From assembly GCA_900318935.1 (NCBI GenBank), contig ONMP01000008.1, positions 1 to 35,850 on the forward strand: 35,850 nt of DNA, read 5' to 3'. Below, piece after piece: positions 30,916 to 35,850 of the stretch (positions are counted from its first letter, which is position 1; each line of letters opens with the position of its first letter). The stretch comes from an uncultured Actinomycetes bacterium (GTDB lineage: Bacteria; Actinomycetota; Coriobacteriia; Coriobacteriales; Atopobiaceae). The notes beneath the pieces were generated by a model. The model searched no databases, was not told the DNA's origin, and saw only the letters and a program-made list of their open reading frames with translations. A program made the position numbers and the translations under genes.

Positions 30916-34423
<3,508 letters not shown>

Positions 34424-34477
34424 CAGGCAGTTCCTCCTAACAAACAGACGAGAAAGCGGCTTTTGTCGCAATATACC

Positions 34478-34506
34478 AATTTAACGGAACGAGCTAGTAA
34501 GGTCAA
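34478..34506 (-). promoter_or_regulatory. Promoter of rpoB-rpoC
   Basis: On the minus strand TTGACC (34506-34501), a 17-base spacer and TAAATT (34483-34478) lie about 55 bases before the rpoB GTG. This gives rpoBC a promoter of its own, separate from the ribosomal protein operon ending in rplL. Confidence 0.75.
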
Positions 34507-34516
34507 CGATTGCTTC

Positions 34517-34545
34517 TTGACAATGCCCGGTTTTTGGTTTATAAG
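34517..34545 (+). promoter_or_regulatory. Divergent plus-strand promoter facing yfcE
   Basis: A perfect TTGACA (34517-34522), 17-base spacer and TATAAG (34540-34545) point to the right, back-to-back with the rpoB promoter 10 bases away. The transcript would start near 34552 and run about 460 bases through a repeat array before the yfcE start. No good reading frame is seen in that leader, so it could be a long 5' leader or a non-coding RNA. Confidence 0.65.
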
Positions 34546-34720
34546 AGTTTCTTTTGTTTCTACCTGCGAAAACTTCGCGCCTATTTGTGTAGATATTGTG
34601 ACTGTGTCATAAGTGTCTCAATCCTTCCGCTCTGCTTACGGCGTCGGCGCGCTGACTCCACAAGCCTTCTCATCGCCACGTAGGTGGGAACGCCAATCGC
34701 GTGAGGCAGGTTGCGTAGGC

Positions 34721-34975
34721 GTTCCGCCAGTTTGACGTCTCCGTGGCTTGCGCCCCGTACCCTTCGCCCCCGCACAGCAGCCCCTTCCGCCAAATCGACG
34801 TCGCCGTGACCCGCTTTCCCCGAGATTGCCGTTGGCGTGGATTTTTACCCCCCAGATTGACGTTCCTGTGGCACTTGAAGCCACGGCGACGTCGATCCCA
34901 TGGAATCCAGCCACACGAACGTCAATCCGGAGGAACGGCCGCCACGGCGACGTCGATCCGGCGGAACGGGTTATG
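34721..34975. repeat. Phased array of seven short repeats between rpoB and yfcE
   Basis: Core consensus GACGTCGCCGTGGC, usually preceded by TTCCGCCxxATT/C. Forward copies begin at 34734, 34797, 34828 and 34859; reverse copies occupy 34880-34893, 34910-34923 and 34941-34954. Steps are 63, 31, 31, 21 (centre to centre at the turn), 30 and 31 bases, all close to whole helical turns. The two halves are mutually complementary and could fold into one long stem. The 34424-34720 part holds the two promoters and otherwise nothing recognisable. Confidence 0.75.
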
Positions 34976-35010
34976 ATTGGCGTTACGAACGGCAGACGAC
35001 AGGGGGAATC

Positions 35011-35553
35011 ATGAAACTCGTTATCGCATCCGACATACACGGGGCGGCGTCCGCGTGCGAGCGACTCATGCGCGTGGTGGATGCCGAGGTACCCGACAGG
35101 CTCGTGCTGCTCGGCGACCTTCTTTACCACGGACCGCGCAACGACCTGCCAGATGACTATGCGCCCAAGCGCGTCATCGAGATGCTCAACGAACGCGCCA
35201 CGCGCATCATCGCCGTGCGAGGCAACTGCGAAGCCGAAGTGGACCAGATGGTGCTCGACTTTCCTTGCATGGCAACGTACAACGAGCTCTTTGACCCCCA
35301 AACCGGGCACATGCTGTTCCTCACCCACGGTCATGTCTATGGGCCGGGCCTCCACAACAGCATCGACAATCCCCCACGGCTCACACCCGGCGACGCGCTC
35401 GTCTACGGCCACACGCACGTAAAAGTCAACGAGCAAAGCACAGCACAACCTGGTGTCACGCTTTTCAATCCAGGTAGCATCGGCATCCCCAAGGACGGCA
35501 GCGCCAGCTTCGGCATCTACGAAAACGGACGTTTCGAGCTTCGCGCGCTCTAG
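35011..35553 (+). CDS. yfcE: YfcE-like metallophosphoesterase
   Basis: A 180-residue calcineurin-like phosphoesterase of the YfcE/MJ0936 group, which hydrolyses small phosphodiesters using two metal ions. Metal ligands are seen in order: ASDIHG (Asp8, His10), LLGDLLYHGP (Asp39 and following), VRGNCEAEVD (Asn in GNC), LTHGH (His) and YGHTHV, then NPGSIGIPKD. All family motifs are present and length is normal. The ATG at 35011 follows AGGGGG. The gene lies on the plus strand inside what is usually an uninterrupted rplL-rpoB junction. A shadow frame on the minus strand (34636-35598) is not a gene. Confidence 0.93.
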   Translation: MKLVIASDIHGAASACERLMRVVDAEVPDRLVLLGDLLYHGPRNDLPDDYAPKRVIEMLNERATRIIAVRGNCEAEVDQMVLDFPCMATYNELFDPQTGHMLFLTHGHVYGPGLHNSIDNPPRLTPGDALVYGHTHVKVNEQSTAQPGVTLFNPGSIGIPKDGSASFGIYENGRFELRAL

Positions 35554-35612
35554 GGCTTCGCGCTGCGGGAACGTCGCCCTCCGCCTTATGCGATGCACGC
35601 CTCCATATGAAA

Positions 35613-35640
35613 GAAGGCCGAACCCGTGGGCTCGGCCTTC
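35613..35640 (-). terminator. Terminator between rplL and yfcE
   Basis: A stem GAAGGCCGA/TCGGCCTTC extended by CCC/GGG. On the minus strand it is followed by TTTC, 23 bases after the rplL stop. It can also act for the convergent yfcE transcript. Confidence 0.82.
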
Positions 35641-35663
35641 GTAAAGCTGGTTGAAGCAAAGAA

Positions 35664-35850
35664 CTACTTCAGGGTGACGGCGGCGCCAGCCTCCTCGAGC
35701 TCCTTCTTGGCAGCCTCGGCGTCCTCCTTCTTGACACCCTCCATGATGACATTGGGGACCTTCTCGACGGCCTCCTTGGCCTCCTTGAGGCCAAGACCGG
35801 TGAGCTTGCGGACGACCTTGATGACGGCGATCTTCTTGTCGCCGAAGGAG
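35664..35850 (-). CDS. rplL: 50S ribosomal protein L7/L12, C-terminal part
   Basis: The frame enters from the right edge; only the C-terminal 61 codons are in the window. The visible part, [20 protein letters not shown] then [15 protein letters not shown] and ending AGAAVTLK, is the conserved L7/L12 C-terminal domain that recruits elongation factors to the ribosomal stalk. Residues for the factor-binding helix ([15 protein letters not shown]) are intact. Downstream is a terminator rather than rpoB, so the usual rplJL-rpoBC linkage is broken by yfcE. Confidence 0.97.

Follow-up and report, generated by a model that had tools for sequence, protein, structure and literature searches.

A phased palindromic repeat array beside rpoB, probably the interior of a foldback-like ISL3-type mobile element

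An opposed repeat array between rpoB and a phosphoesterase gene

The window, by which we mean the whole 35,850-base stretch of DNA analyzed here, carries an array of short repeats between rpoB and a calcineurin-like phosphoesterase gene (called yfcE in the first-pass annotation, which was made from the sequence alone). That annotation described seven repeat cores, four forward and then three reversed, at spacings of 63, 31, 31, 21, 30, and 31 bases, and all of this is exact in the window. The starts of the core, GACGTYNNYGTGGC, are the first coordinates of the seven core entries below.

31619..34345, minus strand: rpoB (start read at 34345, open reading frame 31619-34471); outside the element
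34721..34975, no strand: whole array, the probable interior of a foldback-like ISL3-type element, terminal inverted repeat undetectable
34734..34747, plus strand: core 1 (GACGTCTCCGTGGC), the forward unit farthest from the turn; core 2 follows after 63 bp, or two unit lengths
34797..34810, plus strand: core 2, forward unit; two-unit profile match at 34797-34840, E 1.1e-9
34828..34841, plus strand: core 3, forward unit with 2 mismatches; the polarity marker ATTTTTACCCCCCAGATTGACG comes after it
34859..34872, plus strand: core 4, forward unit at the turn
34873..34879, no strand: turn of the palindrome, 21 bp from core to core
34880..34893, minus strand: core 5, reversed unit
34910..34923, minus strand: core 6, reversed unit
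34941..34954, minus strand: core 7, reversed unit
35011..35553, plus strand: phosphoesterase gene, calcineurin-like (PF12850, E 1.9e-21; 100% self match over 35011-35550); outside the element

Allowing up to two mismatches, we found 22 matches to GACGTYSSYGTGGC in the window, compared with 6.8 ± 2.67 in 100 dinucleotide shuffles of it, the largest shuffle count being 14. Eight of the 22, one of them an off-register overlap, fall within 34734-34954, and cores are packed into this 220-bp stretch far more densely than chance would give. The two halves are also complementary and able to fold, as had been noticed, with a 60-nt stretch of the arms 77% complementary and a 28-nt stretch 86%; single-strand folding of the array is more stable than that of shuffles (z of -5.7 as DNA and -7.5 as RNA). 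The array is thus a real and unusual feature, and the original observation of it is confirmed. The divergent promoter pair proposed in front of it held up in part: a scan gives a single promoter-like site, that on the minus strand for rpoB (34506-34478, with 0.6 expected), and the plus-strand candidate, TTGACA-N17-TATAAG near 34517, picked out by eye, fails the rule of that scan.

A dispersed family built on a 30- to 31-bp unit

Arrays of this kind, which we call type A, are scattered through the window's own genome (G000, a 3.8-Mb draft) and that of a sister species of the same genus (G009). Judged by RpoC, the named contigs closest to the window's genome belong to Olsenella (81% similarity) and Atopobium (78%). 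An exact two-core pattern occurs 7 times in G000, 18 times in G009, and in none of 58 other relatives, and the reversed-pattern control gave 0 in every genome. A two-unit profile of 44 positions, constructed from 50 of 74 non-redundant pairs of neighboring units, has at least 167 matches in G000, at least 196 in G009, and at least 3 in a third genome of the genus, G010, these being lower bounds with 150 first-look candidates scored per genome; none was among the matches listed for the other 13 of the 16 genus genomes. Three matches to the two-core pattern in viral contigs look by eye like unrelated coding or low-complexity repeats, and the terminal repeat described below had no match in viral contigs.

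The layout of forward units, a turn, and reversed units recurs in every well-preserved array. Spacing was measured without a preset distance in 38 sources (the window, 36 stretches from G000 and G009, and one from G010). The distance to the next core was 29, 30, or 31 bp in 5, 106, and 80 cases, respectively, together 191 of 218 with a mean of 30.4 bp, counts that are not all independent because some insertions are common to G000 and G009. The turn measures 21 bp in 28 of 40 cases and 12 bp in 7, and GATTCTT stands at the turn position in most complete elements. Conservation reaches past the core (TTCC-N-YGRGATY-GACGTYSSYGTGGC), and units vary in length only within the poorly conserved bases that follow GTGGC. 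One arm of complete elements contains a unit with a T-run and ACCCCC, which fixes the polarity of the array and recurs in the window copy as core 3. The near-integral-turn spacing pointed out at first pass is therefore genuine three-turn phasing and a trait of the whole family, so it is no accident of the window site. The same annotation had named, as what would refute it, the core being a common dispersed repeat at unrelated spacing; it is dispersed, and its spacing is kept. We read the array beside rpoB as a single member of a mobile-DNA family dispersed over the genome and not as a special polymerase switch.

Two further unit types share the period. Type B (GCGCTTCGTGCGGGG-like) occurs in composite elements of G000 and G009, with 16 of 23 neighbor distances at 30, 31, or 32 bp and the others at 14, 17, and 62. 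Type C occurs in G014, where type-A matches are absent, in elements with the same ends (for example L161:1527-1857 and L158:1120-1460), and 8 of its 11 distances are 30 or 31 bp. With units collected by patterns picked by eye, kinship exceeds column-permuted controls between types B and C (0.0005) and does not between A and B (0.21) or A and C (0.29).

Ends, target sites, and ISL3 transposase genes

In complete copies, the array is bounded by inverted repeats of GGNTCARTCCCAAAACCTGTGGG. With at most one mismatch, the terminal repeat core CCCAAAACCTGTGGG is found 25 times in G000 and 26 times in G009, the control giving 0. Simple copies measure 357 to 476 bp end to end (L175, which has a weak right end, measures 566 bp), and composite copies of 749 to 956 bp (L143, L144, L151, and L180) combine a type-A array and a second palindromic array within one pair of ends. 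Among 25 arrays of the window's genome, 11 of whose stretches were picked for an end match, ends lie within 260 bp on both sides in 9, on one side in 9, and on neither in 7.

The 8-bp sequences that flank the ends are AT-rich and agree at a mean of 4.59 of 8 positions, compared with 2.62 ± 0.33 when partners are shuffled, over a table of 22 rows. One element, L144, is entered twice in it, and three rows are of other interior type; L161 and L262 differ in their interiors, and L159 is probably no true element. None of 2,000 shuffles reached the observed mean, and the flanks of L269 are identical at all 8 bases. Furthermore, G010 has a clean empty site for the G009 element L172: the joined flanks of L172 align through their junction to G010 at 88% over query positions 6-312. 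G010 carries one copy of this target region, and G000 matches its left flank only. In the empty-site comparisons for L269 and L146, flanks are conserved only in part.

Several single loci deserve mention in their own right. By eye, L172 seemingly lies beside a tRNA gene. The G009 element L181 has its right flank in common with L091/L250 of G000 at 99% and a different left flank, which suggests that a rearrangement may have passed through the element. A short element in G013 (L163) has a similar end on one side and a GGGGACAGTCCCC-type palindrome in place of the array, and a palindromic repeat cluster in G014 (L159:1000-1560), with lags of ~62 and ~71 bp, adjoins a degenerate end.

The ends point to the ISL3 family, whose elements are described in one account as having 8-bp direct repeats and imperfect inverted repeats of 15-39 bp (PMC5395568). 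The ISL3 DDE transposase domain PF01610 is present in 5 of the 16 genus genomes, with no match in the draft assemblies of G000 and G009. Multi-copy insertion sequences are often missing from draft assemblies. In four relatives, ISL3 genes stand by the same ends: in G015, a zinc-ribbon ISL3 domain (PF14690, E 9e-6) whose start codon lies ~115 bp inward of the end; in G008, a PF01610 C-terminus against the end (E 2e-9); in G090, a similar ISL3 C-terminal reading against the end, by eye only; and in G149, an ISL3-type N-terminus that starts ~115 bp from the end and scores below the Pfam cut-off. All of these genes are fragments or run off their contigs, and no complete autonomous copy was seen among these four. 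Of 140 genomes of the taxonomic family, 9 carry a longer end pattern, spread over 4 of 35 genera. Homology of the outer domains to internal ISL3 sequence was marginal, with shuffled fractions that varied by pair between 0.000 and 0.816, and is not claimed.

Readings of the array and known systems

The window copy is assigned to the family by its unit sequence, unit spacing, 21-bp turn, and polarity marker. It has no match to the terminal repeat at up to three mismatches, and its flanks show no likeness to the outer domains above shuffles (fractions of 0.11-0.35). This is common: among 14 own-genome arrays picked by array match (those of the window and L263-L275; the rule applied yielded no cluster in L264 or L276), 7 are without the terminal repeat within 260 bp, and arrays may therefore also exist or spread without ends. 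The window copy is thus one of a sizeable end-less class, with decayed copies as the simplest reading.

At the orthologous rpoB site of G009, where the RpoB N-terminus is 100% identical, the array has three extra whole units (30+31+31) in the stretch between core 1 and core 2, on a contig that ends inside the array. The N-terminal 200 amino acids of RpoB were found in 15 of the 16 genus genomes; outside G000, the array lies upstream of rpoB in G009 only. The phosphoesterase (metallophosphatase) gene is likewise present in 15 of the 16 and has the array beside it only in G000. The rplL-rpoB gap, read gene to gene in G014, G010, G012, G008, G007, G003, G001, and G002, contains neither a phosphoesterase gene nor a type-A array; in the other genomes compared, the gap is not bounded by rplL. 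In the window (34345-35850), the phosphoesterase gene sits on the opposite strand between rplL and rpoB, and it is missing there in these eight relatives. A different set of palindromic repeats (GTGCGCAC...) occupies the gap in G007 (L218), and the gap seems prone to repeat insertions.

We consider the array, at a probability of roughly 0.77, to be the surviving interior of a non-autonomous, foldback-like, ISL3-type transposable element whose family is dispersed in G000 and G009. Behind this reading stand several demonstrated features: the elements are dispersed, have ends and duplicated targets, and left one empty site; the ends accompany ISL3 transposase genes in relatives; and unit number changes at orthologous sites. 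Complete copies begin and end with an ISL3-type terminal inverted repeat of ~23 bp. Inside these lie two outer domains, one per side, and between them a central palindrome, whose two opposed arrays (unit of ~30.4 bp) are joined by a turn of 21 bp. Cutting at the terminal repeats and insertion into AT-rich sites, with duplication of 8 bp, would be the work of an ISL3 transposase supplied in trans; whole units come and go in the arrays, and old copies, the window copy included, would shed their ends. We infer both that copies are mobilized by an ISL3 transposase and that the window copy formerly carried ends of this type.

Compatible with this element, and adding a function to it, is the possibility that its phased interior is working DNA, bound once per three turns by a protein (the DNA-binding part of the transposase or a host nucleoid protein) to form a nucleoprotein bundle for synapsis of the ends. 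The idea is modeled on the proposal for the fly element Galileo, whose THAP domain is described as binding repeats inside the long ends (PMC3688188), and we regard it as possible, if rather unlikely. It would fit the 29- to 31-bp distance kept by 191 of 218 neighboring cores, and also types B and C, which differ in sequence and have the same period of 30-32 bp. However, plain inheritance with duplication of whole units could give a constant period, and the ISL3 ends of relatives (the ~115 bp from end to start codon) hold no such units by eye, so ISL3 ends in general can do without them. A binding role is an unproven but live option because ends are combined here with a repeated, species-specific interior, as in Galileo. 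More speculative still is a bacterial foldback class in which the interior turns over between species while the three-turn period and opposed layout are kept by selection, because a multimeric transposase or a DNA-bending complex of the host assembles on the phased interior and brings the ends together.

Three other readings appear improbable. Selection for folding, as a structured RNA or DNA hairpin (a terminator, an insulator, or a long double-stranded leader of the phosphoesterase gene), could account for a folding energy well under that of shuffles. However, conservation of the long RNA stem suggested at first pass is not borne out, as an arm pairs no better with the facing arm of its own element than with that of another: in the 23 of 29 turn-centered arrays with assignable polarity, facing arms have an identity of 0.659 within elements and 0.669 across them, and the observed value is reached in 92.6% of permutations. 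At the turn, positions 7-8 of the paired cores mismatch in 32 of 46 cases. Each arm is closer to the same arm of other elements (0.769 and 0.723), which favors descent from one ancestor whose two arms already differed, and the lack of covariation between facing arms makes a selected RNA or DNA stem unlikely. No Rfam family was found at gathering score in 13 element loci, and the window stretch gave four chance-level matches, none of them credible; we consider the hairpin very unlikely. Slightly less probable again is that a regulator of the rpoB operon or yfcE binds at the array. Although the array lies between the two start codons and at the same site in G009, the family is dispersed through the genome, and both the rplL-rpoB gaps and the phosphoesterase surroundings are without it in the other genus genomes examined. 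The autoregulation of rpoB or control of yfcE once proposed is thus unsupported, the array being read as a dispersed mobile-element interior that is absent at both genes in the other genomes examined, save at rpoB in G009. On present evidence, the position beside rpoB is incidental, and the window copy probably does nothing particular for either gene. A cluster of REP/BIME type, the least probable of the three, would share the dispersal, the palindrome at the level of the array, and the intergenic position at the window site; yet the consensus of the 30-bp unit shows by eye no self-complementary stem of the kind that a small hairpin would have, and the single turn, the fixed spacing, and the many copies with transposon ends and target duplications argue against it. 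For annotation, the case is a caution that a striking phased array by a key operon can be debris of a mobile element.

Among known systems, CRISPR arrays are similar in having direct repeats at regular spacing, but here the sequence between cores is itself conserved (TTCC..GGGATT) and the array reverses direction; its period comes to roughly half that of CRISPR repeat-spacer units. REP/BIME sequences, in which each repeat is a hairpin of 20-40 bp linked to a RAYT transposase, and REPINs are likewise dispersed palindromic intergenic repeats, whereas our family has by eye no single-unit hairpin, a fixed three-turn spacing, and transposon ends. With ISL3-family insertion sequences it has in common the 8-bp duplications, the imperfect inverted repeats, and an end sequence found with ISL3 transposase genes in relatives, but a palindromic array apparently takes the place of a transposase inside it. 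Bacterial miniature inverted-repeat elements (MITEs), as treated in one review, are also short, non-autonomous, and equipped with terminal inverted repeats and target duplications, with truncated copies that lack ends (PMC10969869). Examples are Correia, RUP, ERIC, Nezha, Chunjie, and QMITE. In our elements, by contrast, the interior is an opposed array of phased units, and the words "tandem," "foldback," and "ISL3" are absent from the main text of the same review of prokaryotic MITEs (PMC10969869). No description of this kind of element was found among the open-licence papers searched.

Foldback architecture is known mainly from eukaryotic transposons. Our elements resemble Drosophila FB (whose unit is 31 bp), Galileo, and Tetris in their long inverted arms of tandem repeats, variable unit number, short middle, and short conserved extreme ends; the inverted arms of tandem units are found here, as is a three-unit difference at the window's site in G009. 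Galileo is described as having short conserved ends and an interior that differs between species (PMC3688188), and Tetris as having only its end portions in common with another non-autonomous element (PMC4079207). Unlike the Drosophila elements, ours are bacterial, with ISL3-type ends, an 8-bp duplication, a simple element of less than ~500 bp, and a unit of 30-31 bp (~220 bp in Tetris), so that the likeness is one of architecture only. It is a foldback-like architecture on a bacterial ISL3-type miniature element, and a compact bacterial foldback of <500 bp with such ends would make the role of internal repeats in transposition testable in an easy system.
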